Positions 8,394-32,340 of a stretch of DNA of 36,135 nt are shown one piece after another (the stretch's first letter is position 1; every line of letters starts with the position of its first letter). A model generated the notes under the pieces. It searched no databases, had not been told where the DNA came from, and saw only the letters and a program-made list of their open reading frames with translations. The stretch is from contig JAFSKK010000025.1 in assembly GCA_017448965.1 (NCBI GenBank), positions 1-36,135 on the forward strand. Reading direction: 5' to 3'. Both the position numbers and the translations under genes were made by a program. This stretch comes from Bacteroidaceae bacterium (GTDB lineage: Bacteria > Bacteroidota > Bacteroidia > Bacteroidales > Bacteroidaceae).

Positions 8394-8540
8394 GATAGGG
8401 CTGTTTCCGAAAGTTAAACTTTCCTTAACGACCTACGCAATCCGTGACATATCGCGGCAGTTCAAACCGCTTTAACACTTCCCGTTCCAACTTCCGAAAT
8501 TTGACGTGATTTGCGTAGTGATTTATTCCCAGAAAGGTAT

Positions 8541-8548
8541 TACTTTTG
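8541..8548 (+). promoter_or_regulatory. -7 element of the integrase promoter
   Basis: TACTTTTG fits TAnnTTTG and is followed after 31 bases by the ATG at 8580. This excludes an upstream in-frame ATG at 8511 as the start, since it would precede transcription initiation. Confidence 0.6.
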
Positions 8549-8579
8549 CAGCCCGAATTTTAAAACTGAGTTAAGAAGA

Positions 8580-9809: not shown

Positions 9810-9813
9810 AGAC

Positions 9814-10185
9814 ATGGAAGAGAGAAACATCATCAAGTGGAGCGAGTATAGTGAGTGCACAGAACTGACTATACCGAGTGGGGAGATATGGATGAGCGAG
9901 TCCGAACTGGTGGACTTGTTCGGAGTGTTCATCCCCAAGTTGAGAAACACCATCAAAGCCCTCTACAAAGAGGGACAGGTAAAGCCCTATGAGGCAGAGC
10001 GAACAATCAAAGTGAAGCGAAACCAGTACCTTACCGTATATAATATGGAGGTGGTCATGCTGCTTGCCTTCTGCCTTAATACCTACCAGACAAGGGCTGT
10101 CCGCAGGGAACTTATGGAGCGTATAGAACGCAATCACAAGCCGTTTGAAGTTATCCTGACCGCAATGAGCGGCACAGGAAACTGA
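9814..10185 (+). CDS. RhuM-like small mobilization-region protein
   Basis: 123 aa, starting 4 bases after the integrase stop, hence probably one transcript. The segment SESELVDLFGVFIPKLRNTI followed by YNMEVVMLLAFCLNT resembles the conserved DNA-binding-like N-terminal region of RhuM/Fic-associated proteins and small proteins commonly found beside Bacteroidetes integrases and mob genes. It could be an excision or mobilization accessory factor. I see no enzyme motif. Assignment to the family is moderately secure; its job is inferred from position. Confidence 0.7.
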   Translation: MEERNIIKWSEYSECTELTIPSGEIWMSESELVDLFGVFIPKLRNTIKALYKEGQVKPYEAERTIKVKRNQYLTVYNMEVVMLLAFCLNTYQTRAVRRELMERIERNHKPFEVILTAMSGTGN

Positions 10186-10389
10186 CAGAGAAGAAGAGGG
10201 GCAGACAGGGAAACGGAAAGTTGGAGGATAGTTTGGTGTGCGGGACGGCAGGAAGTCCTGCACACCATCCATCCGCCCATCCTTCTACCTCACCGTCTTT
10301 CCATCCATCCGTCACACGGTACGGCAATGTACGACGGACTTGATGCTGGCGCAGGAACGGGTATTTCCCACAGGCGGAAAATACCGTAG

Positions 10390-10447
10390 CCTATTAGGGG
10401 ATTTTTCGAGCCGCACAACAGAGTTAGTGCTAAAAATCCCCAATAGG
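10390..10447. repeat. large inverted repeat, candidate oriT stem of the mobilizable element
   Basis: CCTATTAGGGGATTTTT (10390-10406) and AAAAATCCCCAATAGG (10432-10447) form a 16-bp stem with one bulged A and a 25-base loop. The repeat lies in a 450-base non-coding stretch directly upstream of the MobV relaxase gene, where oriT sites of this relaxase class are normally found. No protein-like ORF is convincing in 10186-10639. Confidence 0.55.
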
Positions 10448-10549
10448 CCGAGGAGTTGCACCCCTCTGGACACCCTGCCAAGACCGTCGGCAAGAACCGA
10501 ACACGAGCAGAAGCGAAAAGCGAACCTTTTCGATAAGCCAAATGACCAA

Positions 10550-10577
10550 AGCCATGCTTGCATGAGCTTTGGCATGG
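10550..10577. repeat. short inverted repeat GCCATGC / GCATGGC
   Basis: Seven-base arms at 10550-10556 and 10571-10577, about 60 bases before the relaxase ATG. It may be part of the oriT region or a leader hairpin controlling the relaxase gene. Confidence 0.45.
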
Positions 10578-10639
10578 CGAGAAAAGGTGCATAAATATGA
10601 ACGAAACAGAATGTCAAACGGATAAATCTTAACAAGCGA

Positions 10640-11971
10640 ATGGGATACGCAGTATTACACTTAGAGAAAGCAAAAGGAGCGGACAGCGGCATGTCTGCCC
10701 ATATCGAAAGAACCATACAGCCCAAGAACGCCGACCCGACAAGGACGCACCTCAACCGTGAACTTATCCAGTTCCCCGATGGTGTACGTAACCGCACGGC
10801 AGCCATCCAGCACCGCCTTGACACGGCTGGGCTTAAACGCAAAATAGGCAAGAACCAGGTACAGGCCATCCGCATCGTGCTGACTGGCACCCATGCTGAT
10901 ATGGAACAAATAGAGCAGACGGGCAGACTGGATGAATGGTGCCAAGACAACCTTGACTGGCTCCGTAAAACCTACGGGGCAGATAATGTCGTTTCAGCAG
11001 TGTTGCACATGGACGAGGAAACACCGCATATCCACGCCACCATCGTCCCTATCGTGCAGACTGAGCGTAAGAAACAGAAGAAGGAGCAGACCGCCAAGAA
11101 GAAATACAGGACGAAAGCACCTGCACCCCGTCTGTGTGCTGACGAGGTGATGAGCCGTGCCAACTTGATACGTTACCAAGACACATACGCTGAGCAGATG
11201 GCGGCATACGGACTGCAACGTGGTATCAAAGGCTCGGAGGCGCAGCACATATCCACGCATGAGTATTACCGTAGCCTTATTGCGCAGGGCGAGGATTTAC
11301 AGGCGAACATCACCCAACTGCTGGCAAAGGAAGCAGAGGCAAGAGAGGTGATAGCCGAGGCAGAACAGGCAAAGAAAGACCTTGCCCGTATCAAGGTAGA
11401 GGCAAAGACGGAGGAACTGAAGAACTCCGCCACGAAGACTGCCACCACTGCACTCAATGGGCTTAATTCTCTTCTTGGCGGTAATAAGGTTAATAGACTG
11501 GAGAAAGAGAATGCCCAACTGCACAGGGAAGTGGACGAATTGAGCGAGCGCATTGAAAGATTTCAAACTGACATGCAGAAGTTGAAAGACAACCATGCAA
11601 GGGAAAGATACAGGGCGGAGGAACAGCACCAACAGGAGGTGAACAATCTGAAATTCCTTATTGACAAGGCTTATAAGTGGTTTCCGAGTTTCAAACGCTT
11701 CCTCAAAATGGAGCGTGAATGTCTGGATTGTGGCTTCAACATAGAACAGACCGACAAACTGCTGCACGGACTGACCGTCAATTATAGTGGATGGCTTCAC
11801 TCAAACGAGTATAGGCGCAATGCGCTTGCCGATAACGTCATGGCACAGGTGATAAGGGACGAGAAGCGGAACTTGTTCCTGCATATCAACGAGACACCCA
11901 TTGCCCAATGGTTTAAGGAGCAGTTCGGAATAGGACAAAGTGAGGCACAAAGGAAGGGAATTAGGCTATAA
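10640..11971 (+). CDS. mob: MobV-family relaxase (Mob/Pre)
   Basis: 443 aa. The N-terminal relaxase domain shows the family motifs: HIER with His21, HLNREL near residue 37, and the metal-binding HMDEETPHIH (123-132). A long coiled coil (about 230-340) and a C-terminal helical tail follow, as usual for Mob/Pre proteins. It should nick one strand at oriT and pilot it through the machinery of a co-resident conjugative element. The candidate oriT inverted repeat lies 190-250 bases upstream. No separate mobilization accessory protein other than the RhuM-like gene is visible. Confidence 0.92.
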   Translation: MGYAVLHLEKAKGADSGMSAHIERTIQPKNADPTRTHLNRELIQFPDGVRNRTAAIQHRLDTAGLKRKIGKNQVQAIRIVLTGTHADMEQIEQTGRLDEWCQDNLDWLRKTYGADNVVSAVLHMDEETPHIHATIVPIVQTERKKQKKEQTAKKKYRTKAPAPRLCADEVMSRANLIRYQDTYAEQMAAYGLQRGIKGSEAQHISTHEYYRSLIAQGEDLQANITQLLAKEAEAREVIAEAEQAKKDLARIKVEAKTEELKNSATKTATTALNGLNSLLGGNKVNRLEKENAQLHREVDELSERIERFQTDMQKLKDNHARERYRAEEQHQQEVNNLKFLIDKAYKWFPSFKRFLKMERECLDCGFNIEQTDKLLHGLTVNYSGWLHSNEYRRNALADNVMAQVIRDEKRNLFLHINETPIAQWFKEQFGIGQSEAQRKGIRL

Positions 11972-12049
11972 GCCTATCCCTTTTTCTTGCAAACACATTA
12001 AATTTTGCTTTTTTCTTATATTTCTGATCAATATCTCACAGAAATTTAC

Positions 12050-12057
12050 TATTTTTG
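12050..12057 (+). promoter_or_regulatory. -7 element upstream of the secreted protease gene
   Basis: TATTTTTG fits TAnnTTTG and would give a leader of about 200 bases before the ATG at 12266. Within that leader a frame reads NEHTPIIGTATQTGAAFP before a TGA at about 12209. It looks more protein-like than random and could be the remnant of a truncated gene, but I cannot name it. Confidence 0.45.
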
Positions 12058-12265
12058 CACACGGATTTCGTATTTATACGTTAGCCAAGACATATTGCTC
12101 AATAGTCTCACAATCACCACCAAGAGAAATGAGCATACTCCTATTATTGGGACTGCAACCCAAACGGGCGCAGCTTTCCCATATTTAGGAGTGGTTTGTG
12201 GTGAACCGTGAGACGTATGGCGAATGTCTGCGCTCATTTTTGTAAGAATAGAAAATAGATAGCTT

Positions 12266-14659
12266 ATGAGACAGGTAATCACATTTCTGATGGCAGTTTT
12301 ACTTCTTCCTGCCGTTGCGCAAAGGAGTGAGAAACAAGGATGGTATGTAAAGGATTATAACGAATCCACAGCAAAAGCGTACTTGGACAACAACTACTAT
12401 CTTGACAAGGTAGAGGGAATATGGCAGTCTACAGATGGCTACAAATATGCCATTGAAAAGAATGTCGAGAACAGCAAACGTGAATCTAACCGATTTAGGG
12501 TGATTGTTTTAGAGTCAAGTGTTGATGGATGGAGACAGTCAGAGATAAAAGGCTTTATTGATTTCGGAAGTATCAATGAGGTTTATTCAATGAAGTACTA
12601 TACTAAAAATATTTATGACGGGTCTGATTTGTCATCGGAAAATGTATTTTTGGTGTTTGACAACCCAATGATGATGAGTTTTCAAAGATTGAATGGAAAC
12701 AAGATAAACCTTTATAAATTATATCCGAAAGTAGATAATCAACAAGCACAACAAAGCCAATACTCAAATTCAAAACCTGTTGAGCAATGGTCTGGTTCAT
12801 GCGTGGCAATTGGGAAGAAACTCGTTGCAACGAATTTCCATGTGGTTGAAGATGCCCAGAACCTCGTTGTTACTGGCATTAACGGAGACAAGACAACCAA
12901 CTATACAGCCGAAGTAATTCTTACAGATAAGTTTAACGATTTGGCAGTAATGAAGATTACCGACTATCGTTTTAATGGTTTCAATATCAAATATGGGGTA
13001 AAGAATAATGTTTCTGATATTGGAACGGATATCTTTGTTCTTGGCTATCCTCTGACGACCACTATGGGAGAGGATATAAAACTAACAACAGGTGTCATCA
13101 GTTCAAAAACGGGTTTCCAAGGTGATGTGTCACAATATCAAATTTCTGCCGCTGTTCAGCCAGGCAATAGTGGTGGCCCTTTATTTGACAACCAAGGTAA
13201 TTTGATTGGAATTGTATCTGCAAAACATCGTGGTGCTGAGAATGTTGGCTATGCCATAAAACTAAGCTATCTTCGCAACCTGTTAGATTCTTCCAATGAG
13301 CCAATCACGATGAATCTAACAAACACCATATCTTCTCTCTCTTTGCCCGAAAAGGTAAAAGCAATATCGCCTTGTGTTTTATTGGTTAAGGCAAATGTTG
13401 GTACGACCACAAGTAGCTCATCTGGGCAACATAATGGCGGAGTGCAAACTCATCAAGGGACTTCAACGGAAAATAAGGCAAGGGCACAAGCCTTAATGGA
13501 ATCAGCAGGTGAGAAATACGAAAGACAAGATTTCTCAGGTGCCTATAGTGATGCTTGCCAATCTGTAAATCTATATCCAACTCCTGTCAGCCATTACATG
13601 AAAGGATTTCTCGCAGCCTATTTCGCCAATGATGCTGACGCAGCAATAGAATCGTTAGAATATTGTATGAGGGAGAAACATAGACCAGAGGCATGTAGCG
13701 ATATTCTCGCAACTTGTTATGCACAAAAAGATGATTGGGAAAAGGCCATTTTGTATGCTGACAAAGCTTTGGGGTATGATAGAAAGAACATGCATGCATT
13801 AGAGTTGAGGGGAATTGGGAAAAGTGAATTGGGGCGAAAAGATGATGCAATAGCAGACTATCTTCAAGCAATCAAGTTTGATGGTGTTGTTGAATACAAT
13901 TTCGCAAATGTGTACAACAATCTTGCCTTCGAATATATGAAAAAAGGTGAATTGAACAAAGCGAAAGATTATATTGACAAGTCTATTAAACATAGCCATA
14001 CTTATGGTAATGCGTGGGACACGTATGGAGAATTAAATTATCGGCTAGGCAATTATGCAGAATGTATTGATTGCATGAACAAATCCATAACGATAGCCAA
14101 ACTTGCAAAGCAGGCCTCTTGGATTGACAATTCATATTTGTATAGGGGATTAGCGAGAAAGAGTCTTGGAGATATGACTGGAGCATACAAGGACTTAGAG
14201 AGAGCCGTTGAGAAGGGAGACGAAACAGCAAAAGAAGAACTTGCGAAGATAGACGCATCGTCAATTGATTTCAGCTTAGACAACGCATACAATGAAATGT
14301 ATGCAAAACCCACTATACGGAAAAGTGGGGCTCCTCATTTGCAAATAAAGGGTGTCGAAGTTTGCGATGAGTATACTGCAATATATTGTCAATGGACAAA
14401 TACCAAATACTCTCCATCTGGTTGGTATGCAATAGATGCTAATGCATATATTCGTGATAAATCGTCAGGAAAGAAATACCTACTATTAACAACAGAAAAC
14501 TGTGCTATTTCTCCTAACACAACATCAATACAAATTAATGAGACTAAAAGTTTTGTCCTTTATTTCCCCGCTATATCTAAAGATGCAACAGAAATTGATT
14601 TCGTTGAATCAGACAAGAGCGAATGGAAGTTCTATGGCATCAAATTGAAGAAAGAATAA
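12266..14659 (+). CDS. secreted trypsin-like serine protease with TPR repeats
   Basis: 797 aa. A signal peptide (MRQVITFLMAVLLLPAVAQ) is followed by an unassigned beta-rich domain (about 22-155) and a chymotrypsin-fold protease domain (about 170-345). Its triad is visible: TNFHVVED (His192), FNDLAVMK (Asp225) and QPGNSGGPLF (Ser302), closest to the S1C/DegP group. No PDZ domain follows; instead there are five or more TPR-like repeats (about 408-640) and a C-terminal beta domain (about 680-797) that I cannot assign. Export to the periplasm or surface is expected. AT content is visibly higher than in flanking housekeeping genes, consistent with imported cargo. A solitary 5S-like RNA starts two bases after its stop. 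Confidence 0.85.
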   Translation: MRQVITFLMAVLLLPAVAQRSEKQGWYVKDYNESTAKAYLDNNYYLDKVEGIWQSTDGYKYAIEKNVENSKRESNRFRVIVLESSVDGWRQSEIKGFIDFGSINEVYSMKYYTKNIYDGSDLSSENVFLVFDNPMMMSFQRLNGNKINLYKLYPKVDNQQAQQSQYSNSKPVEQWSGSCVAIGKKLVATNFHVVEDAQNLVVTGINGDKTTNYTAEVILTDKFNDLAVMKITDYRFNGFNIKYGVKNNVSDIGTDIFVLGYPLTTTMGEDIKLTTGVISSKTGFQGDVSQYQISAAVQPGNSGGPLFDNQGNLIGIVSAKHRGAENVGYAIKLSYLRNLLDSSNEPITMNLTNTISSLSLPEKVKAISPCVLLVKANVGTTTSSSSGQHNGGVQTHQGTSTENKARAQALMESAGEKYERQDFSGAYSDACQSVNLYPTPVSHYMKGFLAAYFANDADAAIESLEYCMREKHRPEACSDILATCYAQKDDWEKAILYADKALGYDRKNMHALELRGIGKSELGRKDDAIADYLQAIKFDGVVEYNFANVYNNLAFEYMKKGELNKAKDYIDKSIKHSHTYGNAWDTYGELNYRLGNYAECIDCMNKSITIAKLAKQASWIDNSYLYRGLARKSLGDMTGAYKDLERAVEKGDETAKEELAKIDASSIDFSLDNAYNEMYAKPTIRKSGAPHLQIKGVEVCDEYTAIYCQWTNTKYSPSGWYAIDANAYIRDKSSGKKYLLLTTENCAISPNTTSIQINETKSFVLYFPAISKDATEIDFVESDKSEWKFYGIKLKKE

Positions 14660-22542: not shown

Positions 22543-23298
22543 CTACCTCTTCGGGTTCCAGTTCATGATGTGCATGTTGTCGTTGAATTTCCCCCACATG
22601 ACAGGGTGCTGTTTGCCTTGGGTGCGCTCCACCACATTGGTGGACACATACATGAAGGTTTCCTTTGCCGTGATGATGCGGTCGCCGTTGGTGTCGGCAG
22701 CTCCCTTGATGCCTTTGAGCAGATATTGGGTGAAGAAACCATTGCTGGCCCATCGGTTTTCCTGCGAGGTCTCATTGGTGCGTGAGGAGAGGAAGAGCAT
22801 CACCCCCTGGTTGTCGTTGAAAGAACTTTGAGCTGTGGAGGAGGGTTGTTTCGTCGATTTTCCTTCGCGCAATCCTCCCGCATAGCAGGCATCGATGAAG
22901 AGCTGCTTGTTCTTGGCGCGGCAGGTTTGGATGATTTGCTGCACTTCTTGATAGGTGACCATCGATTGCTGGTTGCGTGTGTCGTAGGCACAGAGGCCTC
23001 CTTTTCCGCCGTGCCCACTGAAGAAGAAGACAAGGACGTCACCCTCAGTGGCCTGGTTGCATGTCTGGCGCAGTTGTGCGAGGATGTTGTCGTGGGTGGC
23101 CTGTGCACCAAGCAACAAGGTGATGTGTTGGGTATGTGTCTTGTAGAGTTCAGCGATGGCTGTCGCATCCATCTCCGTTTTCTTCAGGTCGCGGATATGC
23201 TGATAGTGGCTGATGCCGACAGAGAGCACATAGATGGTGCGCGCCTCTGCTAATAGGCCGCAGAGTGTCAGCAGACACAGGAAGAGGATTCTTTTCAT
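22543..23298 (-). CDS. secreted caspase-like (peptidase C14) protein
   Basis: 251 aa. A signal peptide (MKRILFLCLLTLCGLLAEA) precedes a caspase/metacaspase-type domain. The catalytic dyad is visible: FFFSGHGGKGG (His96) and QLFIDACYAGG (Cys138). The N-terminal strand YVLSVGISHYQHIRDLKKTEMDA is typical of C14 proteins. The signal peptide puts the enzyme outside the cytoplasm, unlike most defence caspases. It is the third gene of an operon with a LytTR regulator and an FHA/zinc-ribbon membrane protein. Specificity cannot be read from sequence, though acidic residues near the S1 pocket would suggest Arg/Lys preference as in bacterial homologues. Confidence 0.88.
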   Translation of the reverse strand: MKRILFLCLLTLCGLLAEARTIYVLSVGISHYQHIRDLKKTEMDATAIAELYKTHTQHITLLLGAQATHDNILAQLRQTCNQATEGDVLVFFFSGHGGKGGLCAYDTRNQQSMVTYQEVQQIIQTCRAKNKQLFIDACYAGGLREGKSTKQPSSTAQSSFNDNQGVMLFLSSRTNETSQENRWASNGFFTQYLLKGIKGAADTNGDRIITAKETFMYVSTNVVERTQGKQHPVMWGKFNDNMHIMNWNPKR

Positions 23299-23319
23299 GA
23301 TGTGGAATGTATGATGTGT

Positions 23320-23931
23320 TTATGGCAGCGGCACACCGCAGATGGGGCAGTAGCGTTGCTGCTTGAGAATCTGGTAGGGGGTGAAGCCGAGGAACTTGTG
23401 GCAGTGTGGACAGACATATTCCCGCTGCATCTGTGCGTTGAGTTCGGCCATGCGCAGGTTCTTCTTGGCCAGCACCTTCTCGCCCGCCACCATCGAGATG
23501 AGCATCACGACGACGAGCACCGACACCGACACCATCCAGTTCTGTCCTACCAGTTGTGCGAGAGCCATGGTGATGACGGGAGAGAGCATACGGATGGAGT
23601 TGACCCAGAGGGTGTAGCGATCCCAGCGGCGTTTCTCGTTGTCGTAGCGGTTCCACACCTCAGCCAGGTTGATGCTTTCCACATCCTTCATCAACTGGTG
23701 TACACTGGTCTTGTAGTTGCCGAGGAAGAAGGGGGTCTCGGCCTTGATGGTCTTGCGCATCACGCGGATGCCGAACACCGACACACCGCGCTGCGACTGG
23801 CGGTCTTCAATCTGGTAGGTGTCTTCGCCTGTACGGCGTAAGGTGGCGTGTTGTGGGTCTACAGTGGGGTCGGCTATGCTCATGGGCTGCTGTCCGAGCG
23901 TACCAACGATGATTTCTTCTCCTATTTCCAT
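23320..23931 (-). CDS. FHA-domain membrane protein with C-terminal zinc ribbon
   Basis: 203 aa. The N-terminal 75 residues resemble a forkhead-associated domain (VGTLGQQPMSIADPTVDPQHATLRR, then QIEDRQSQRGVSVFG), which binds phosphothreonine peptides. Two hydrophobic segments follow (about 115-155), and the C-terminus carries a zinc ribbon, CPHC and CPIC. Its start overlaps the LytTR gene by 10 bases, and the caspase-like gene starts 21 bases after its stop. Another zinc-ribbon/FHA protein sits in the kinase operon at 31897. Both termini are probably cytoplasmic. Confidence 0.8.
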   Translation of the reverse strand: MEIGEEIIVGTLGQQPMSIADPTVDPQHATLRRTGEDTYQIEDRQSQRGVSVFGIRVMRKTIKAETPFFLGNYKTSVHQLMKDVESINLAEVWNRYDNEKRRWDRYTLWVNSIRMLSPVITMALAQLVGQNWMVSVSVLVVVMLISMVAGEKVLAKKNLRMAELNAQMQREYVCPHCHKFLGFTPYQILKQQRYCPICGVPLP

Positions 23932-24290
23932 ATCTGATGTTGTTCGTAGAGTTCTTTCACTTGTTTCAGCGCCTCCTTCGCCACTGGCAGGGCGAAGTTG
24001 CCCGGATGGTCGAAGTCGGAGAGGATGAGTTGCTGCTTACTGAAGTTGATTTGTACAATCATGTCGGCATTGACAATGAATTTCTTGCCAATGCGGATGA
24101 AGGACATCTGCTCTTGTTCTGCGGCTTTTCCCAGTAGTTCTCCCACCTGCGAGAGGCCGATGGGGAGCATCACTTTCTGCTTGTTGGGGAACACGCCATA
24201 GCAGTAGTTGCCATAAGCCTCGTAGAACATGGCTTTGGCCAAAGGAACCCTCAGGAGTTCGTTGCGGCGGTTGAAGATGACTTCTTTCAT
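23922..24290 (-). CDS. LytTR DNA-binding domain protein
   Basis: 122 aa, essentially a LytTR domain alone: YEAYGNYCYGVFPNKQKVMLPIGLSQV, then FIRIGKKFIVNADMI and LPVAKEALKQVKELY. LytTR domains bind direct repeats in promoter DNA and are usually joined to a response-regulator receiver, which is absent here. It heads the LytTR-FHA-caspase operon with a promoter at 24325-24332. It may control that operon or the nearby DGR targets; this is inference. Confidence 0.85.
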   Translation of the reverse strand: MKEVIFNRRNELLRVPLAKAMFYEAYGNYCYGVFPNKQKVMLPIGLSQVGELLGKAAEQEQMSFIRIGKKFIVNADMIVQINFSKQQLILSDFDHPGNFALPVAKEALKQVKELYEQHQIWK

Positions 24291-24531: not shown

Positions 24532-24801
24532 ATGTTTATGAACGTAACGATTTCAATGAATAATATCTTGAACATCATCCATGCTATGGCATTGTCATCG
24601 AGCAATAAGCAATGGTTGGGTGAAAGGCTCATCAACGAAGCCAAGGCGGAGCAACAGGCTGCTGCAGAGAATCAGTCGGCTGTTGCTGCTGATTCCGTCA
24701 CTCCTAGAGTGCTGCGTTTCAAACGTGGTAATCCATGGAATGTGACAGATGAAGAGATTGAAAAAATGCGTTATGAATACTTAAAAGAAAAGTATAAATG
24801 A
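24532..24801 (+). CDS. putative antitoxin of a PIN-domain toxin-antitoxin pair
   Basis: 89 aa. Hydrophobic and Asn-rich N-terminus, Ala/Glu/Gln-rich middle and a C-terminal RFKRGNPWNVTDEEIEKMRYEYLKEKYK that would wrap a toxin. I see no confident DNA-binding domain. Its last four bases overlap the toxin start as ATGA (24798-24801), the classic arrangement in which the antitoxin is first. The start could also be ATG 24538. Confidence 0.7.
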   Translation: MFMNVTISMNNILNIIHAMALSSSNKQWLGERLINEAKAEQQAAAENQSAVAADSVTPRVLRFKRGNPWNVTDEEIEKMRYEYLKEKYK

Positions 24802-25229
24802 AACGTGTGTTTGTTGATGCAAATATAATCATCGATCTGCTTTGTGAACGCTATCCGTGGTTTCCTGATGTATTGCGCCTTTTCAGTATGGGTGACCTTG
24901 GTCAGATAAAACTATACTGTTCGTCACTTTCACTCGGTACAGCTAGTTATCTGATGGAAACAAGGAAGATGACAAGTCAGGAGATTTTTGAAAATATTGA
25001 CCTCCTGTGTCAAATGTGTACCCCAACTACCGTGGATGCTGCAGTAGTGAAAAATGCTCTTGAATCAGGTTTTACAGACTTTGAGGATGCATTGCAGCAT
25101 TGTTCGGCTCAGACCATTAACGCAGATTGTATTGTTACACGCAATTCAAAAGATTTTTCTGCTTCAGAAATTCCCGTGTACGAACTTGAGGAGTTCATTG
25201 CCTTGATGGAGAAGGTTCCCATGATATGA
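24798..25229 (+). CDS. PIN-domain ribonuclease toxin (VapC-like)
   Basis: 143 aa. PIN-fold acidic residues are present: VFVDANIIIDLL at the N-terminus (Asp7), the middle Glu/Asp region, and DFEDALQHCSA with TRNSKDF near the C-terminus. PIN toxins cut RNA using a metal held by these residues. It is translationally coupled to the upstream antitoxin. The pair lies between the caspase operon and the DGR and may stabilise the locus. Confidence 0.88.
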   Translation: MKRVFVDANIIIDLLCERYPWFPDVLRLFSMGDLGQIKLYCSSLSLGTASYLMETRKMTSQEIFENIDLLCQMCTPTTVDAAVVKNALESGFTDFEDALQHCSAQTINADCIVTRNSKDFSASEIPVYELEEFIALMEKVPMI

Positions 25230-25269
25230 TGGAAGAACAAAGATGGTTATTTTATAAAAAGAGTCAGTC

Positions 25270-25288
25270 ATTACACATTTTGTGTAAT
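25270..25288. promoter_or_regulatory. palindrome ATTACACA-TTT-TGTGTAAT, possible operator
   Basis: Perfect 8-bp arms (25270-25277 and 25281-25288) overlap the -33 region of the first target gene. A partly conserved version (ATTACACATTTTGTTGTAAC) precedes the second target gene near 26328. Confidence 0.5.
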
Positions 25289-25302
25289 CAAGAGTAAGGT
25301 CG

Positions 25303-25310
25303 TATCTTTG
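25303..25310 (+). promoter_or_regulatory. -7 element of DGR target gene 1
   Basis: TATCTTTG followed by TGGCAGAAAAACTAAA, repeated almost exactly before target gene 2 (26375-26382). The shared promoter and leader show that the tandem duplication included the control region. Confidence 0.65.
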
Positions 25311-25336
25311 TGGCAGAAAAACTAAAGAGGAAAATG

Positions 25337-26277
25337 ATGAAACAGAAATTGATACTATTCCTGTTGTACAGCCTCTTTACCGTTGGTGTGAGTGCACAGG
25401 GAGTCATTACGAGGCAGAAGCCAACCACACAACAGGTGACACCGAGCAAGCCGAAAACCACCACGCAGCCAAAGCAGAAGCCTCGGTCAACTACTCAAAC
25501 ACAAACGAGACCACAATCGCGCCCCAGCCATACCCATTCAGTTCCTCAGGGCAGCAACAAGACCTTTACGGCTAATGGTGTTTCGTTCACGATGGTGTAT
25601 GTGCAGGGTGGTAAGTTCCTATGGGTGCTACCAGCGAGCAGGGCAGCGATGCGGAAAGTGACGAGAAGCCCGCTCACTCTGTCACCCTGAGCAGTTACTA
25701 CATTGGCGAGACCGAGGCGACGCAGGCTCTTTGGCAGGCAGTGATGGGCACGACTATTAGACAACAACGTGATAAGGCTGTTAAAGGTTGGCCATTGCAA
25801 GGTGAGGGCACCAATTACCCAATGTATTGTATTTCATGGGAGGACTGCCAAAGGTTCATCGGCAGACTTAATAGTCTGACAGGCCAACACTTTCATTTGC
25901 CCACTGAGGCGCAATGGGAGTATGCCGCCAGAGGTGGCAGCAAGAGTTGTGGCTATAAGTACAGTGGCAGTAACGACATTGGATCCGTTGCGTGGTATGG
26001 CGAAGTCAACGGTGGCGCCCGTCCTGTGAAGACTAAATCGCCCAATGAGTTGGGCATTTACGACATGAGCGGCAACGTGTGGGAATGGTGCCAGGACTGG
26101 TACAGCTCCTACAGCAGCAGTTCACAGACAAATCCTACAGGCATATCCAGTGGGTCTTACCGCGTGTTTCGTGGTGGCTGCTGGCTTTATAACGCAATGG
26201 GCTGCCGTGTCTCGTACCGTGGCAATGGCACCCGCCCGGATCGCGACTACTACCTTGGGCTGCGCCTCGCCCTCTGA
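25337..26277 (+). pseudogene. DGR target gene 1: secreted FGE/SUMF1-like (C-type lectin fold) protein, frameshifted
   Basis: This reads as a close paralogue of the next gene: signal peptide (MKQKLILFLLYSLFTVGVSA), Thr/Gln/Lys/Pro-rich linker, then the formylglycine-generating-enzyme-like domain ending in GLRLAL. One base is missing at about 25619-25620 compared with the paralogue (GGKF-MGATSEQ against GGTFTMGATSEQ), moving the rest to another frame (25621-26277). As it stands the product would end at 25690 without the lectin-fold domain. Restart at ATG 25621 would lack a signal peptide. A sequencing error would also explain it. Its variable region VR1 is 26149-26278. Confidence 0.8.
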
Positions 26278-26278
26278 G
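26149..26278 (+). repeat. variable region VR1
   Basis: 130 bp aligning without gaps to the template repeat 28947-29076. It differs at about 33 positions, of which about 18 are template adenines and 15 are not, so it has drifted beyond mutagenic homing and is not a recent copy of this template. The 3' part CTTGGGCTGCGCC is retained. Confidence 0.85.
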
Positions 26279-26374
26279 TTTCACAACCCTTCCAAAAGAT
26301 GACTTCTTGCCTCAAATGAGGGTGTGATTACACATTTTGTTGTAACACATTCTGTGTGATCAAGAAAAAGATTG

Positions 26375-26382
26375 TATCTTTG
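26375..26382 (+). promoter_or_regulatory. -7 element of DGR target gene 2
   Basis: TATCTTTG followed by TGGCAGAAAAACTAAA, matching the target gene 1 promoter. It lies 28 bases before the ATG at 26410. Confidence 0.65.
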
Positions 26383-26409
26383 TGGCAGAAAAACTAAAAA
26401 AGGAAAACT

Positions 26410-27321
26410 ATGAAACAGAAACTTTTGTTATTCTTGTTATGCTGCATCTGCACCGTTGGTGCGGCTGCACAAGGTATCATCACGCGGCAGAAACCGACCA
26501 CGCAGCAGCAGACACAGCGCAAACCGAAGACCACCACGCAATCAAAGCCGAAGCCTCGGTCGAACACGCCAACCCAAACGAGACCGCAGTCGCAGCCAGC
26601 TCAAGGCTCGTCATCCTCTCAGGGCGGCAACAAGACCTTCACCGCCAACGGTGTGTCGTTCACGATGATCTATGTGCAGGGCGGCACGTTCACCATGGGT
26701 GCCACCAGCGAGCAGGGCAGTGATGTGGAAAGCGACGAGAAACCAGCCCACTCGGTTACCCTGAGTAGTTATTATATCGGAGAAACCGAAGTGACGCAGG
26801 CTCTTTGGCAGGCGGTGATGGGAAGCAATCCATCCAACTTCACGGGTGACAGCCGTTTACCTGTGGAGCAAGTGAGCTGGGAGGACTGTCAAACCTTCAT
26901 CAGTCGTCTTAACTCCTTGACTGGTCAACATTTCCGTCTGCCAACTGAGGCACAGTGGGAGTTTGCCGCCAGAGGAGGCAACAGGAGCCGTGGCTACAAA
27001 TACAGTGGCAGCAACGACATTGGTTCTGTGGCGTGGTATACAGACAATAGTGGTTCCAAGACTCATCCAGTAAAGACCAAATCGCCCAACGAGTTAGGCA
27101 TCTACGACATGAGTGGGAATGTGTGGGAATGGTGTCAGGACTGGTATGGCGATTACAGCAGCAGTTCGCTGACCAACCCTACAGGCGCATCCAGTGGGTC
27201 TTACCGCGTGATCCGTGGTGGCAGCTGGAACTACATCGCAAGGTCTTGCCGCTCGTCGAATCGTTACAACTTCACCCCGTCGTTCCGCAACAACAACCTT
27301 GGGCTGCGCCTTGCCCTCTGA
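26410..27321 (+). CDS. DGR target gene 2: secreted FGE/SUMF1-like (C-type lectin fold) variable protein
   Basis: 303 aa. A signal peptide (about 1-21, ending VGAAAQG) leads to a Gln/Thr/Pro/Lys-rich linker (22-75) and an FGE-sulfatase-like domain (about 85-303). Landmarks are GGTFTMGATSEQ, LPTEAQWEFAARGG, NVWEWCQDWY and RGGSWN. This fold is a common scaffold for DGR variable proteins, where the last residues form the ligand face. Diversified codons lie in the last 43 residues (27193-27322). The catalytic Cys pair of true formylglycine-generating enzymes is not evident, so it is a binder, not an oxidase. Its ligand is unknown. It is expected in the periplasm or on the surface. Confidence 0.93.
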   Translation: MKQKLLLFLLCCICTVGAAAQGIITRQKPTTQQQTQRKPKTTTQSKPKPRSNTPTQTRPQSQPAQGSSSSQGGNKTFTANGVSFTMIYVQGGTFTMGATSEQGSDVESDEKPAHSVTLSSYYIGETEVTQALWQAVMGSNPSNFTGDSRLPVEQVSWEDCQTFISRLNSLTGQHFRLPTEAQWEFAARGGNRSRGYKYSGSNDIGSVAWYTDNSGSKTHPVKTKSPNELGIYDMSGNVWEWCQDWYGDYSSSSLTNPTGASSGSYRVIRGGSWNYIARSCRSSNRYNFTPSFRNNNLGLRLAL

Positions 27322-27322
27322 G
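27193..27322 (+). repeat. variable region VR2
   Basis: 130 bp matching the template repeat with 12 differences. Ten are A to T, one is A to C, and one (27246, C to T) is not at an adenine. Affected codons are mostly AAC in the template, giving Tyr, Ile, Ser and Phe. It ends one base past the stop codon. The 3' 25 bases are identical to the template and act as the probable homing site. Confidence 0.95.
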
Positions 27323-27328
27323 TTATAC

Positions 27329-27457
27329 AACCCTTACATAAGGGGTTCTAAGCTCGGTGACAGCATGCAGACACAGCGGAGCATGGGCAAGACGGAGTAA
27401 GCCCATGCAACGATGTGGATGAATGATGGAGCATTCATTATACCGGCGTAAGCCGGT
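27329..27457. repeat. four successive hairpins between VR2 and the HRDC gene
   Basis: AACCCTTA/TAAGGGGTT (27329-27347, one bulge), GCATGGGC/GCCCATGC (27381-27408), ATGAATG/CATTCAT (27419-27438) and ACCGGC-GTAA-GCCGGT (27442-27457, GNRA loop). In the phage BPP-1 DGR a GC-rich hairpin just after VR is needed in the DNA target for homing. Here the cluster may do that, or act on the RNA. Confidence 0.7.
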
Positions 27458-27476
27458 CGAAAAATATTTTGTCAAC

Positions 27477-27977
27477 ATGCAAATCAGGATATTTACTATT
27501 CCTCTCTTGGGCGACGAACAAGGCCTAAGTGAACTGAACCACTTCTTGCGAGCGAACAAGGTGATAGACATCAGAAAAGAATTGGCACAATCGGGTGGCA
27601 GTGCTTTCTGGACGTTCTGCATCACCTATATGCTCAGCTCACATTCCGCGGCTGATGCTGCTCCTGCATCGACCACTCGCCCCAGCAAGGTGGACTACAA
27701 GGAAGTGCTGGACGAAACCACGTTCGCCCGTTTTGCCAGAATGCGCAAACTGCGCAAGCAGATAGCGGAGAGCGAGGCGGTGCCAGCATACGCAGTCTTT
27801 ACCGATGCCGAACTGGCTGAAATGGCCAAACTGGAAGTGCTGGACACAGCCAACATGTTGAAGATTCCGGGCATCGGAAAGAAGAAAGTGGAGAAATACG
27901 GAAACGCCTTTTGCTTGACTGACTATACACTACTGGATGATGAAGAGAGTGGGAAATCTGACGGAACGGATCGCTGA
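27477..27977 (+). CDS. DGR accessory protein with HRDC domain
   Basis: 166 aa from ATG 27477; a longer frame from 27423 would put the hairpins inside the coding region. The N-terminal 55 residues (IFTIPLLGDEQGLSELNHFLRANKV) form the conserved alpha/beta module I associate with Bacteroidetes DGR accessory proteins. The C-terminal part (about 84-148) is an HRDC domain with VFTDAELAEMA and LKIPGIGKKKVEKYG, which binds nucleic acid. It stands where Avd stands in other DGRs. It overlaps the RT gene by 41 bases. Confidence 0.85.
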   Translation: MQIRIFTIPLLGDEQGLSELNHFLRANKVIDIRKELAQSGGSAFWTFCITYMLSSHSAADAAPASTTRPSKVDYKEVLDETTFARFARMRKLRKQIAESEAVPAYAVFTDAELAEMAKLEVLDTANMLKIPGIGKKKVEKYGNAFCLTDYTLLDDEESGKSDGTDR

Positions 27978-28965
27978 GCTGGACAATCTCTATCTGGCAT
28001 TCGCCAAGGCATGCAGAGGAAAGCAACGGAAACGCGAAGTGCAGGACTTCAGAGAACACTTCGATGAGAACATGTCGAAACTGAGAAGTGAGATACTCTC
28101 GGGAGACATCCAGGTGGGGCAATACCATTATTTCACCATCCGCGACCCCAAGGAGCGCATTATCTGTGCGGCTCCGTTTCGTGAAAGGGTTTTGCATCAT
28201 GCCATCATGAACGTGTGTCACGAACACTTTGACCGCAGCCTCATAGACACCACTTACGCGACTCGTCCAGACAAGGGCGTGTATGCCGCCATCGACAAAG
28301 CGGTGTGTGCTGCCAGCCGCTATGAGTGGATGGTAAAGCTCGATTTCCGTAAGTACTACGACTCCATCAACCATATCGTGCTAAAGCAACTGCTGGAAAG
28401 AAAGTTCAAGGATAAGACCCTGCTCCGCCTGTTCTTTCGTATCATCGACAGTTATCATGCTGAAACAGATGTGGGACTGCCCATTGGCAACCTGACCAGT
28501 CAGTACTTCGCAAATCTCTACCTGTCGGACTTCGATCATCGAGCCAAGGAGGTCTTGCGCGTACCTATATATATAAGGTATATGGACGACATCCTTATGG
28601 CTGGGAACAATAAGCGTGAACTGATGGAAAGTGTCAGAGAGATGGAGGCTTTCGCTCTATCGAAGTTCTGCCTGACGCTGAAACCGCCTATCTGCCATAA
28701 GTCGAAAGATGGGGTGGTGTTCTTGGGATATCGAGTGCTCCCCCACCACTATCTGCTGGCAGGAAGGAGCAAGCGGAGGTTCAGGACAAAGATGATAGCC
28801 TATGGGCACCGGCTGCATGAAGGGGTATGGGAAGAACAGACCTATCAGGAACATATACTGCCGCTGTTGGCCTACGTGCAACATGCCGACTGCAAGGAGT
28901 TCAGACGGTCGTGTGTGTCAATCATAGAAAAAGGTGACAATCGAAGAGTGGGTCTAACCGCGTGA
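27937..28965 (+). CDS. DGR reverse transcriptase
   Basis: 342 aa, start at ATG 27937 or 27940, overlapping the accessory gene. Palm motifs are visible: KLDFRKYYDSI (Asp136), GLPIGNLTSQYFANLYL (180-196) and YMDD (215-218). It lacks the maturase and endonuclease domains of group II intron RTs. It makes cDNA from the template RNA with errors at adenines. Its stop codon at 28963-28965 lies inside the template repeat, so the gene and template share one transcript. Confidence 0.95.
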   Translation: MMKRVGNLTERIAELDNLYLAFAKACRGKQRKREVQDFREHFDENMSKLRSEILSGDIQVGQYHYFTIRDPKERIICAAPFRERVLHHAIMNVCHEHFDRSLIDTTYATRPDKGVYAAIDKAVCAASRYEWMVKLDFRKYYDSINHIVLKQLLERKFKDKTLLRLFFRIIDSYHAETDVGLPIGNLTSQYFANLYLSDFDHRAKEVLRVPIYIRYMDDILMAGNNKRELMESVREMEAFALSKFCLTLKPPICHKSKDGVVFLGYRVLPHHYLLAGRSKRRFRTKMIAYGHRLHEGVWEEQTYQEHILPLLAYVQHADCKEFRRSCVSIIEKGDNRRVGLTA

Positions 28966-29076
28966 ACCGTGGTGGCAGCTGGAACAACAACGCAAGGAAC
29001 TGCCGCTCGTCGAATCGTAACAACAACACCCCGTCGAACCGCAACAACAACCTTGGGCTGCGCCTTGCCCTCTGAG
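28947..29076 (+). repeat. template repeat (TR) of the DGR
   Basis: 130 bp. If read in the VR frame it is full of AAC (Asn) codons: 12 of 35 codons before the constant tail, which is how DGR templates permit changes to many amino acids. The first 19 bases overlap the 3' end of the RT gene. Bases after it (CTTAGAAC) diverge from those after VR2 (TTATACAA), fixing the boundary. Confidence 0.96.
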
Positions 29077-29140
29077 CTTAGAACACCTTCTGTGAGTGGA
29101 TGCTCGCTTTTAGTAAGGGTTGTAAACAGATTGTCATCTT

Positions 29141-29165
29141 GGACAGAACATCATTATTCCTGTCC
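29141..29165. repeat. hairpin GGACAG / CTGTCC downstream of the template repeat
   Basis: Six-base arms with a 13-base loop, about 65 bases after the template. It may belong to the structured 3' part of the template RNA that DGR reverse transcriptases need for priming. Confidence 0.4.
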
Positions 29166-29207
29166 GAAACCGCGCCTCCGTCCTTTCTTAAGGTTGGGTG
29201 GCAAAAG

Positions 29208-29267
29208 AAACAGACCTTAGTAGTTTCTTGGATGAGAAACCGAACAGGTCTGTTTCCTTTAGTTTTT
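29208..29267. terminator. terminator closing the DGR transcript, possibly bidirectional
   Basis: AAACAGACCT (29208-29217) pairs with AGGTCTGTTT (29246-29255), followed by a T-rich tail on the plus strand. The convergent kinase gene ends at 29293, so the same hairpin may stop its transcript. This gives a DGR template RNA reaching about 180 bases past TR. Confidence 0.8.
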
Positions 29268-29292
29268 TCTTACAGGAGGTTGTGATTACACA

Positions 29293-30840
29293 TCACATCT
29301 CTTTTCCGTCCACCACATCGGCATCCTTTGTGCCTTTGCTGTTGTACCAAGTGCCATCCCAAGGAGAACCTGATTTGAACGTGCCCTTGAAGTAGCTGCC
29401 GTCGGAGAGGGTGTAGGTGCCTTCTTTGTAGAAACCACCATCAAATGTGCCCTCGAACTTGTCGCCGGAGGTGAAGGTGAGTGTACCTTTGCCTGTGCAG
29501 AGACCTTGTTCAAAGTGACCCACATAGGTGGCAGCAGGAACATTGCCATACTTGGCGAATTGGGCAGTACCTTCTCCCTGAGGCATCTCGTTCTCATCCA
29601 CATCGCCCGTGTAGGTGTAGGAACGCATGTTTTCAGGGCCGCTCGATACAGTGACTTCTTGGTCGGTGACGGCAATGGTCGGAAGGGTGTCCGCTGCCAG
29701 GGTGTCACTCGCCAGAGTCTCAGACTTCCCGCTACATTGCGATTGGCTCAGTACCATCACACCACCTCCAACACAAATCGCTGCCAAGGCAACCAACAGG
29801 TAAGTCACCGTTTTCTTGCTGCCACCCACCTTCTTCGGGGTAGGTGGAGGAGCGGGTGGTGTCTGGCCTTTCTTCTTCTTCAGCAACGTCTCGTCCTCCT
29901 CTTTCTTTGGTTCCGACGGCTTAGGCTGTTGCGGTTGCTCGGGCACCTCCATCAGGAACTGCTTCACGTCAGCCACGCTTTGTGGGCGCATCTTTCTGTT
30001 CGGCTTCATCAGCCAGAAGATGAGGTCGCGTGTCTTCTTCGAGATGGTGGCAGGCATGGGTAATGCTGCCTCAGCATCCTCGTCGATGTCGGATGGTGAT
30101 GGCGGCTGCTTTTTTGTCAGCAGGTTATACATGGTGGCACCCAGTGCATAGAGGTCTGTCCAGGGACCAAACTTCTCCATGTTCTGCTCCATCTGTTCAG
30201 AAGGCGCATACCCAGGCGTGTAAGCCAATGCCGACGAAGTGGAGAGCGAGTTGCCATCCTTGTTGCGCAACTGCTTGCTGGCACCGAAGTCGATGAGCAG
30301 GGCGTTGCCCTTGCGGTCGAGCATGATGTTGGCAGGTTTGAGGTCGAGATGCCAGATGCCCTCGGCATGCACCGTTTCCAGCGCGTCGAGCACCTGTGGC
30401 AGAATGAGCATCAACTCCTGTTCAGCCATCGGCTTATCGGTGCGCTTCATGCGTTGCGAAAGGCTCTCGCCATCCACCAAATCCATCACATAGTAAGAGG
30501 TACCGTTCTCGTCGAAGAGGTCGTGCACACGGATGATGTGGGGATTGACCAACTTGCGCAAACGGCGTGCCTCCCTTCGGAACTTCTCCTGCTGGGCAGC
30601 AAACGTGCGCTGGTTTTCCGTCAGGCTGATGGAGACGTTCGCATTGTCCTCACCTCGTCCGCACACACCCTTGATAAACAGTTCCTTGATGGCCACTCGT
30701 TCATCGAAAGCGGTGTCGATGGCCACATAGGTGTTGCCAAAACCGCCCGATGAAAGGTGGCGTTCAATCTTGTATTTTCCATTCGACAGCTCAGTTCCTA
30801 CCTGTAGCATGCCTTCTCTTTCCTGATTCTGTTCGTTCAT
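29293..30840 (-). CDS. membrane Ser/Thr protein kinase with extracytoplasmic MORN repeats
   Basis: 515 aa. The Hanks-type kinase domain (about 20-285) shows a Gly loop (SSGGFGNTYVAID), VAIKE (Lys52), HLDLKPANIML (Asp166) and DFG (184-186). HLD in place of HRD makes it a non-RD kinase, perhaps not needing activation-loop phosphorylation. A Pro/Lys-rich linker leads to one transmembrane helix (about 347-368), then four or so MORN repeats near the C-terminus (GEGTAQF, GKGTLTFTSGDKFEGTF, GTYTLSDGSYFKGTF). The repeats may sense or anchor outside the membrane. Its ATG overlaps the PP2C stop (ATGA, 30837-30840). Likely partners are the FHA proteins here and at 23320. Confidence 0.93.
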   Translation of the reverse strand: MNEQNQEREGMLQVGTELSNGKYKIERHLSSGGFGNTYVAIDTAFDERVAIKELFIKGVCGRGEDNANVSISLTENQRTFAAQQEKFRREARRLRKLVNPHIIRVHDLFDENGTSYYVMDLVDGESLSQRMKRTDKPMAEQELMLILPQVLDALETVHAEGIWHLDLKPANIMLDRKGNALLIDFGASKQLRNKDGNSLSTSSALAYTPGYAPSEQMEQNMEKFGPWTDLYALGATMYNLLTKKQPPSPSDIDEDAEAALPMPATISKKTRDLIFWLMKPNRKMRPQSVADVKQFLMEVPEQPQQPKPSEPKKEEDETLLKKKKGQTPPAPPPTPKKVGGSKKTVTYLLVALAAICVGGGVMVLSQSQCSGKSETLASDTLAADTLPTIAVTDQEVTVSSGPENMRSYTYTGDVDENEMPQGEGTAQFAKYGNVPAATYVGHFEQGLCTGKGTLTFTSGDKFEGTFDGGFYKEGTYTLSDGSYFKGTFKSGSPWDGTWYNSKGTKDADVVDGKEM

Positions 30841-31913
30841 GGTTCCTCTTTTCCTTTTGTCCGTTGAATGGGGCCCTGCACTTTGGTACCATCCTCGTTC
30901 TTCTTCTCCACCTGTTCCGTCTGTTCGATCGACTGTCCGATGGTAGGAAGGTGGTCAAACACTGGGTTCTTCAACACGAAGAAGTACAGCAGGGTCAGGA
31001 CCACAGCCAATCCGACCAGAATGGACAGGATGACATAGAGCAGACGGGACGATTTCTTCGGTTGTGGTGACATGGTCAGAGTGGGGTCGAGGGTGACGGA
31101 CTCCTTGGCACTTTCGTCCATCTTCTCCACCGCCACCATCTCTATCCCTTCCACATCTTCCACTTCAAATGCGTAGCAGGAGTGGTTGTCACGCGTTCCA
31201 CGCTTGGCACACTCAGCCTTCAGCATGTCGAGCCTTTGCTGCAAGGGCTGATTTGTCAGCAGGATGGCGGACAGGTCAGGATTCTCAATCTGTTCCACGA
31301 TGCCGTCGCAGCAAAGGAAGAAGAGGTCGCCTTGCCGCACGTCGGTGAGCACCTTGAACGTGGCCTTTGAGGGATATTCCTGATGAGGCATCACCGCACG
31401 GGTGATGACGTTCTTCTGGTCGAAGTTGCGTGCTCCCTCCTCGTCCAGTTCGCCAGCGGCAATGAGGTCGTTGAGCAGGGAGTGGTCGTGCGTCTGGAAC
31501 ACCACCCCCTTGCCTCGACGCATCTGATACACACGGCTGTCGCCGATGTGTGCCACCAGAATGCCGTCCGTGCAGAGTGCCAGGAAGGTGAGCGTGGTGC
31601 CCATCTTGCGGATGGAATCAGAGGACTGATCCAGTTTGTCGAGTTCCTGATAAGCCGTTGCCAACGCCTGCTCAAACAGGGTGCGTGTCTCGGCAGCGCT
31701 GTGCACGGGATGACTTTCCATCAACTGACCGATGGTGTCTGCCACACAGGAACTGGCCACCTCGCCATGTTCGTGACCACCCATGCCGTCGCACACAAGG
31801 AGCACATGACTTTGGGCGCTGGCCTGTCCCTCATGGGGATATAGCGAGTCCTCCTGATTGGGCTTCTTGCCCAGTTCGGAGAAACATAGCGGTTTTCTAA
31901 TCCTGATATTCAT
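30837..31913 (-). CDS. PP2C-type Ser/Thr phosphatase with C-terminal membrane helix
   Basis: 358 aa. Metal-binding motifs are NQEDS (Asp22), CDGMGGHEHGE (Asp42), HIGDSRVYQ and a terminal RDNHSCYAF. A transmembrane helix (about 296-318) is followed by a short tail. It should reverse the phosphorylation made by the coupled kinase. The start overlaps the FHA gene by 17 bases, and the stop overlaps the kinase start by four. Confidence 0.93.
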   Translation of the reverse strand: MNIRIRKPLCFSELGKKPNQEDSLYPHEGQASAQSHVLLVCDGMGGHEHGEVASSCVADTIGQLMESHPVHSAAETRTLFEQALATAYQELDKLDQSSDSIRKMGTTLTFLALCTDGILVAHIGDSRVYQMRRGKGVVFQTHDHSLLNDLIAAGELDEEGARNFDQKNVITRAVMPHQEYPSKATFKVLTDVRQGDLFFLCCDGIVEQIENPDLSAILLTNQPLQQRLDMLKAECAKRGTRDNHSCYAFEVEDVEGIEMVAVEKMDESAKESVTLDPTLTMSPQPKKSSRLLYVILSILVGLAVVLTLLYFFVLKNPVFDHLPTIGQSIEQTEQVEKKNEDGTKVQGPIQRTKGKEEP

Positions 31914-32340
31914 TCGCCAAATACATTTTTTGTCCGCCCATTTGCAGACAGTCGTTGATGTTCAGATAAACGATGTCGTTCTCAATCAGTTCCACTCCTC
32001 TCAGCGAAGTGGGGTTTTTTCCATGCTCCTCAAAGGTGCAGCGGATGCCTGTCGGTTGACAGGAGAGTTCCACCACCGCATGCTTGCGGCTCATGTAACG
32101 GCTATCGTCGGGAATCTGCACTTCAGCGTCGCTGCCCTCTTTCTGGCGGCCAATCCATTGTCGGCCAAAGTGCAGTTGATAGTTCTTCACGCCCACCTTG
32201 AGGCTGTAGCGTGGCAGGTAGTCGCCAATCTTCTGTTTGGAGTGGCAGTGGGGGCATTCGGCCGTTTTCTCCTCCAGCCCCTGTGCCGACTCAACTTGTA
32301 TCACGCCCTTGCAGGAAGGGCACTTCAATGAGATTTTCAT
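31897..32340 (-). CDS. zinc-ribbon/FHA protein
   Basis: 147 aa, soluble. N-terminal zinc ribbon CPSCKG and CPHCHSK (about 7-33), then an FHA domain: WIGRQKEGSDAEVQIPD, SRYMSRKHAVVEL and LIENDIVYLNI. The phosphothreonine-binding Arg and Ser-Arg-Lys-His residues are conserved, so it should read kinase products. It mirrors the protein at 23320, where the same two domains are in the opposite order and joined by membrane helices. Confidence 0.9.
   Translation of the reverse strand: MKISLKCPSCKGVIQVESAQGLEEKTAECPHCHSKQKIGDYLPRYSLKVGVKNYQLHFGRQWIGRQKEGSDAEVQIPDDSRYMSRKHAVVELSCQPTGIRCTFEEHGKNPTSLRGVELIENDIVYLNINDCLQMGGQKMYLANEYQD

Follow-up and report, generated by a model that had tools for sequence, protein, structure and literature searches.

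Here we describe a diversity-generating retroelement (DGR) at positions 25303–29076 of a 36,135-nucleotide stretch of a Bacteroidaceae genome (contig JAFSKK010000025.1 of assembly GCA_017448965.1; the whole stretch is hereafter the window), in which a conserved structured RNA of approximately 190 nt (29076–29266), with covarying stems and an AGUA/GAA internal loop, lies immediately 3' of the template repeat (TR). In most of the related loci, the ~33 nt that follow the variable repeat (VR) of the target gene are, locus by locus, the reverse complement of the ~33 nt that follow the TR. Taken as a whole, we consider it probable that this is an HRDC-type DGR with one working target, in which the structured spacer RNA primes the complementary DNA (cDNA) and a block next to the target repeat matches the product. 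This interpretation builds on the parts of the element, the covariation in the RNA, the order of the parts in relatives and the locus-specific complementarity, all of which are observed directly. The RNA after the TR and the inverted complement after the VR are both additions to the original prediction, which was made from the window sequence and described a complete DGR with two targets.

An HRDC-type DGR with one intact target

The block 25303–29076 is a genuine chromosomal DGR of the HRDC type. Its components are all encoded on the forward strand, namely two target genes (25337–26277 and 26410–27321), the gene for an HRDC accessory protein (27477–27977, with an alternative start at 27423; PF00570, 62.8 bits), the reverse transcriptase (RT) gene (27937–28965; PF00078, 63.2 bits) and the TR (28947–29075). 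These coordinates and domain matches agree with the predicted composition (TR, VR1, VR2, HRDC protein and an RT with YMDD), and so does the predicted overlap of the TR with the RT stop codon: the final 19 nt of the RT open reading frame (ORF), stop included, are shared with the TR. The HRDC and RT genes overlap as well. The RT, for which RT families were matched in the profile search, contains the YMDD and IGNLTSQ motifs. To judge from a section heading of the DiGReF publication (PMC3521204), the SQ motif is a candidate mark of DGR-type RTs. No bAvd above the cut-off was found in the genome of the window (best 33.7 bits, cut-off 40).

Both targets start with a hydrophobic stretch ending in AQG, a putative signal peptide. 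An FGE-sulfatase/C-type lectin fold is predicted for both; target 2 matches PF03781, and its best solved relative is Treponema denticola variable protein 1 (2y3c, E 1.4e-47), the DGR protein TvpA. Of the claim of two tandem lectin-fold targets, the fold stands, but only target 2 (303 aa) is intact, whereas target 1 is frameshifted near 25615, so that its frame is split into ORFs 25310–25690 (from 25337 as a gene piece) and 25621–26277. The window thus holds one intact target and one old, broken target.

VR2 (27193–27321), the end of which is the stop codon of target 2, disagrees with the TR at 12 of its 129 positions, with 11 of the mismatches falling on the 34 TR adenines and one on the 95 other bases (Fisher p 1e-6), as expected under the predicted adenine-biased rewriting. 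In VR1 (26149–26277), 18 of the 34 adenines and 15 of the 95 other bases differ. Given that the latter fraction is only somewhat lower than that by which the two target genes differ outside the VR (167 of 773 aligned positions), VR1 has long escaped overwriting and is an old copy, not rewritten recently. The adenine changes in VR2 are 10 A>T and one A>C; in relatives, 205 A>G, 184 A>T and 58 A>C were counted, the share of A>T being higher in VR2 (10/11) than in relatives (184/447; p 0.001).

The presence of further VRs in the genome was considered and rejected: beyond the DGR there are three short TR-like matches (27, 20 and 14 nt), of which the best, the one examined, lies within an unrelated gene. 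A phage or plasmid origin was considered and rejected, with no match of at least 60% identity and, among the matches listed, maxima of 38.7% for phages and 38.4% for plasmids. Close relatives in viral contigs were found neither by protein nor by the exact TR end.

Relatives of the DGR

Relatives are designated below by locus (L) and genome (G) numbers. The distribution of the DGR RT is rare and patchy: counting the genome of the window itself, it was detected at E<=1e-60 in 8 of the 399 family genomes and in 16 of the 393 genomes at order level, while a search of the genus at E<=1e-40 gave 1 of 45. HRDC is encoded upstream of the RT in 30 of 31 relative loci, the exception having 34 nt of upstream sequence. 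We accepted 28 VR/TR pairs in 24 of these 31 loci, in which 447 of 967 adenines and 45 of 2622 other positions differ; the rule for choosing pairs tolerates adenine mismatches, and a base-blind scan gives the same adenine bias in the same 24 loci. No accepted pair was found in the other seven (L018, L050, L061, L065, L068, L070 and L071).

A genome of the same genus, G007, carries three targets of the DGR type, adjoined by the kinase and phosphatase genes that also lie near the window DGR (L119; contig C49, 15000–34000). The HRDC match in G007 covers residues 1–78 only, and no RT was found at E<=1e-40 in the genome or at 1e-3 in the 19-kb stretch. Compared with the window TR, the three VRs of G007 differ at 14, 19 and 19 of 34 adenines and at 4, 8 and 10 of 95 other bases, so that the adenine-biased variation anticipated in relatives is seen across species, which fits retrohoming activity. 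L119 is a fossil DGR; it provides cross-species evidence that a TR of this type was used to rewrite the target family and that loss of the machinery is possible. Immediately ahead of the HRDC gene in the window there is a hairpin-like sequence, CCGGCGTAAGCCGG (27441–27462), also present in G007, which might have a role in translation control.

A structured RNA directly after the TR

The relatives share a common layout 3' of the TR, in which an AGC at the TR end is followed by a hairpin (H1, with a GGAT loop in many loci), a (U)GAACAG motif, more hairpins and, finally, a terminal stem with the internal loop UAGUAG/CGAA. In the window, the TR 3' flank, hereafter F (29076–29127), contains a short helix, P1 (29078–29080 with 29123–29125), that closes H1 (GAG-TGGATG-CTC, 29094–29105). 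Two further hairpins, H2 (29138–29167) and H3 (29174–29201), are predicted in the window only, and the terminal stem (29207–29256), with TAGTAG (29218–29223) opposite CGAA (29241–29244), is followed by a T run (29263–29268). The AGUA/GAA loop resembles the loop E (sarcin-ricin) motif.

The terminal stem was found at a score >=10 in 26 of 31 elements as against 17 of 310 shuffled sequences and 11 of 123 coding windows, and at >=14 it was retained by 24 elements, compared with 2 shuffled sequences and 3 coding windows. Across the 11 pairs in 26 aligned sequences, 87.1% of the cells are paired (46.8% when shuffled), and the covariation is 1.045, compared with 0.165–0.315 for slid and 0.234 for shuffled alignments; this figure leans towards the stem because the scan favours paired stems, so that the counts in shuffles and coding windows are the fair control. 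With H1 included (17 sequences), the covariation is 0.818 versus <=0.234 when slid. The RNA of the window itself folds with a z-score of −3.26, only 1 of 200 shuffles being as stable.

P1 is formed by the base triplet that follows the terminal AGC of the TR and the triplet that precedes the AC of the motif. Pairing is observed in 83 of 90 cells and is complete in 24 of 30 rows, whereas 20000 permutations gave a mean of 68.5 and a maximum of 78; four rows were entered by hand, and the permutation control leaves relatedness in. The helix occurs as UCA/UGA, UUA/UAA (the window), UCU/AGA, UCC/GGA and CUA/UAG. P1 would bring the adenines of the motif to the end of the TR, the site that calls for a primer.

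A covariance model of the RNA only, built from 17 elements (R1), yielded 28 matches at E<=0.01 in 24 of 247 genomes of the order. Fifteen of these matches score >=59 bits, 11 of them known from the RT search and four new: L078, with HRDC and an RT in two pieces; L081, with RT pieces and a target; L099, with TR-like repeats at a contig start; and L098 (1250–1672, G492:C180), an orphan TR with a complete element, for which no RT or HRDC was found in a 3.2-kb stretch. The L098 genome holds an HRDC–RT locus on another contig (L078). Among the 13 weak matches (<33 bits), L085 and L086 lie inside unrelated genes, L088 and L100 represent inverted blocks downstream of a VR, the L100 site being that of L059, and the other nine showed no RT or target match. 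A later set came from an RT search of the phylum (28 of 395 genomes), from which 29 of 37 matches, all outside the genome of the window, were taken; it is mostly from one family and genus, and L146 in it is identical to L072. In this set, R1 detected 19 of 23 HRDC loci at >=44.9 bits, as well as L142, the upstream part of which is cut off, and missed L125, L140, L141 and L137 (cut, 27.3 bits).

The Rfam families RT-14 and RT-17 occupy the corresponding place in other DGRs. Of 12 loci scanned, two, L028 (identical to L054) and L029, have an RT-14 match directly after the TR, at 38 and 41.5 bits and thus short of the 48.1 cut-off. In the Avd-type Bacteroidota DGR L072, which gave the single match among 395 genomes (41.6 bits), RT-14 fills the space between the TR and the RT; in phage BalMu-1 it lies, at 70.4 bits, between the TR (1517–1636) and the RT (1789). 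RT-17 is located between the TR and the RT in the crAss-like phages L102 and L103 (33.7 bits each) and in an unannotated phage record, L106 (43.8 bits; cut-off 40.4). An RNA of this kind thus follows the TR regardless of whether the TR stands before the RT, after it or alone. About 200 bases beyond the DGR element of L028, there is a match to the Rfam DUF805 RNA (2954–3021, 85 bits).

An inverted complement of the TR flank after the VR

In the window, the block after VR2 (27322–27355) resembles the reverse complement of the TR 3' flank: 27333–27355 correspond to 29074–29096, and the first ~15 nt of the block look, by eye, complementary to 29114–29127. An inverted-repeat scan also identified a stretch after VR1 (26280–26297) complementary to 29109–29126. 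Across 28 pairs, excluding window VR1 and one cut-short pair of L016, the median score of VR-downstream DNA against the TR flank was 31.5 inverted, 14 forward, 13 shuffled and 13 across loci, and the shuffled 95th percentile was reached by 23 of 28 inverted but 3 of 28 forward comparisons. When the best VR of each locus was used, the own flank ranked top in 20 of 25 loci, with p<0.01 in 21 of 25 and a mean own-flank score of 33.6, as against <=20.1 in 5000 reassignments. In the later set, 21 of 29 loci were testable; the inverted match had p<0.01 in 18 of these (one at 0.00998), including 16 of 17 HRDC-type loci, and the forward match in none of 21.

The inverted block ends at the conserved motif that pairs with the TR junction. 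When F was fitted end to end, beginning where the TR stops and reaching to the motif, 32–37 nt after the VR were used in 27 of 35 loci with the GGAT loop. Run blind, R1 matches the opposite strand directly after the VR in L059 (22.2 bits), L054 (11.1), L060 (11.1) and L129 (14.5), and also at a target end without a TR in L088 (23.1). In L088 (1501–1614, G419:C180), the end of an FGE target is followed by an inverted TR-flank block nearly identical to that of L059; no RT was found in its 1.7-kb stretch, and L088 is possibly a target served in trans. In L016, a second target ~2.3 kb beyond the TR also bears the block (score 36). Weaker inverted matches, deeper in the spacer, were observed in L143/L144, where the TR precedes the RT, and in phage BPP-1 (p 0.007–0.008). 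Extended to the end of the VR, the BPP-1 match (p 0.007) would reach spacer position ~53; A56 is the adenine from which priming is reported. In L056 (4655–4805, oriented with the RT), a VR-like copy has the TR flank behind it in forward orientation, as a second TR would.

Proposed mechanism and alternatives

We propose that the operon transcript would end in the TR and the structured RNA, which would be the spacer of the template RNA and recruit the RT–HRDC complex. The P1 helix would hold nucleotides of the RNA itself, those of the conserved UGAAC/UAAAC motif, against the TR 3' end, and these would prime the cDNA, in the synthesis of which the RT would misread adenines. If F primes the cDNA at the TR end, the product would be a continuous strand, RNA flank F joined to cDNA, antisense to the VR and the downstream block. 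The VR would then pair with the cDNA, and the ~33 nt after it, the complement of F, with the RNA part. Binding by the RT and HRDC, the exact priming nucleotide and the pairing of F with the target DNA during homing are steps that we infer, the last being the boldest. The structure of the BPP-1 complex has reportedly been solved by Handa and co-workers (2025). By analogy with BPP-1, the spacer of which, according to a recent paper, recruits RT–Avd and primes the cDNA (PMC12875486), the RNA after the window TR may have the same role. More tentatively, and with some doubt, we suggest that the HRDC-type template RNA carries its own target address, with F priming the cDNA and the RNA–cDNA strand invading the VR and the block as one.

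Several observations weigh against this scheme. R1 scores only 13.7 bits (E 0.015) on the window itself, and no Rfam family, RT-14 with its cut-off of 48.1 bits included, exceeds its cut-off in 25200–29400; the window and L014 are a divergent subtype of the element, and P1, H1 with its GGAT loop and the AGUA/GAA terminal stem are all present directly 3' of the window TR. The loci of the later set are not independent because most belong to one genus. Of the 35 loci, 7 give poor end-to-end fits of F (score <=16), and the inverted matches of L048, L056 and L069 are weak (p 0.013–0.043). No inverted match was found in the HRDC-type loci L051 and L141, in the loci with the TR before the RT (L107, L072, L102–L106 and L147), or in L108, the TR and VR ends of which may be ill set, to judge from its forward scores of 42 and 51. 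Furthermore, the stem after the BPP-1 VR is described, in PMC3240598, as free to change sequence if the stem is kept, which argues against a strict need for sequence pairing there; the same source indicates that the loop acts by sequence.

This tolerance of stem changes also favours the view that the block after the VR is the known DNA hairpin or cruciform of DGR targets, recognised by shape, and that it resembles the complement of F because the same protein binds similar hairpins in RNA and DNA, the bottom strand of which reads as F. The predicted fold of the window F, an extended imperfect hairpin, fits this view, but simple hairpins after the VR, which we rejected as a conserved target mark, are no better than those after the TR (mean best stem 4.3 for both; the 5-bp stem after VR2 has p 0.11), forward likeness is at the level of chance while the inverted one is far above it, and the likeness is locus-specific; we regard recognition by shape as somewhat unlikely. 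If, instead, synthesis of the top strand continues beyond the cDNA and on into the RNA primer, the block would be a scar in which the complement of F is written after the VR. The end-to-end fits over 32–37 nt agree with this possibility, which also implies priming at the motif, and the complementarity by segment in the 19 original loci (0.87 and 0.71 for the arms versus 0.70 for the H1 core) does not separate pairing from copying. However, although VR2 looks freshly written, the block behind it departs widely from the exact complement of F, so that the block is not rewritten at each event; accordingly, a scar appears unlikely.

Since most of the 31 relative loci have their target, HRDC and RT genes in a single run on the same strand, the complement at the target end could also pair with F within the operon mRNA and control processing or RT expression; this is improbable given that the L016 target beyond the TR and the terminal stem bears the block as well. 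That the terminal stem is a mere transcription terminator, with the rest of the element non-functional, is suggested by the T run in the window and many relatives but is very improbable, because the internal loop hardly changes whereas the stem does, H1 and P1 also vary with compensation, and a like stem is found between the TR and the RT, where transcription must continue, in L143/L144 (17.9 bits), L107 and L072. Finally, diversification might have ended while the parts persist, as the frameshift in target 1 and the remnant locus of G007 would suggest; with the RT and HRDC ORFs intact and VR2 nearly clean outside its adenines, a dead DGR is likewise improbable.

Should the RNA-borne target address be real, the choice of target would be guided by RNA and set by the ~33-nt flank, and the orphan TR with its element in L098 would be a trans-acting template gene. 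How DGR cDNA is integrated into the target is called unknown in a 2026 paper (PMC12875486), and the locus-specific complement ending at a conserved motif allows the priming site and the target address alike to be predicted from sequence. It also points to a likely job for the RT-14 and RT-17 families, and searches with R1 can detect template RNAs that lack an adjoining RT.

Genomic context

The DGR is flanked (22543–24290 and 29293–32340) by genes for a Ser/Thr kinase, a PP2C phosphatase, two FHA proteins, a LytTR protein and a caspase-like peptidase. The kinase (29293–30840; a MORN match is below the cut-off) and the phosphatase (30837–31913), both on the reverse strand, are context and not part of the DGR. 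These genes possibly form a signalling or conflict cluster, linked to the DGR by position alone. Directly upstream of target 1, a PIN_3 protein (24798–25229) is preceded by a small ORF (24532–24801), a toxin–antitoxin-like arrangement. More than 10 kb upstream, the region 8511–14659 encodes an integrase, a Mob_Pre protein and a trypsin-like TPR protein and could be a mobile element.

Comparison with known systems

In a partial survey of the literature, which an earlier mention may have escaped, we recognised no description of an HRDC-type spacer RNA or of such complementarity. The HRDC-associated DGRs of T. denticola (PMC4891356) resemble that of the window in that the HRDC accessory gene overlaps the RT gene, and the variable protein there is the best solved relative of the window target; however, their accessory gene is located between the TR and the RT, whereas the window TR follows the RT. 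The DGR-diversified sensors of conflict systems (PMC10907252) likewise combine a CLec/FGE target with nearby kinase and caspase-like genes, but the window target is a separate protein with a leader, unfused to an effector or NTPase.

Among the Rfam families, RT-14 (RF02921) and RT-17 (RF03020) resemble the window element in their position 3' of the TR in DGRs, and RT-14 shares the UUAGUA/GAA stem with the window-type element, although the window element matches neither. The BPP-1 DGR (L101) is similar in having a structured RNA after the TR, adenine mutagenesis and an element after the VR, but employs Avd instead of HRDC, has the TR before the RT and diversifies a phage tail protein; its spacer matches Phage_DGR (RF03022, 104.7 bits) and not R1 (best 0.9 bits). 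The plasmid DGR of Prosthecochloris aestuarii (L108) has the same order as the window, i.e., an FGE target, HRDC, RT and then the TR, after which a terminal stem of the form GGTAG/CGAA can be made out by eye (R1 score 7.3 bits). In contrast to the window, no inverted block was found there, and both HRDC and Avd are encoded, so that HRDC is not simply a substitute for Avd.

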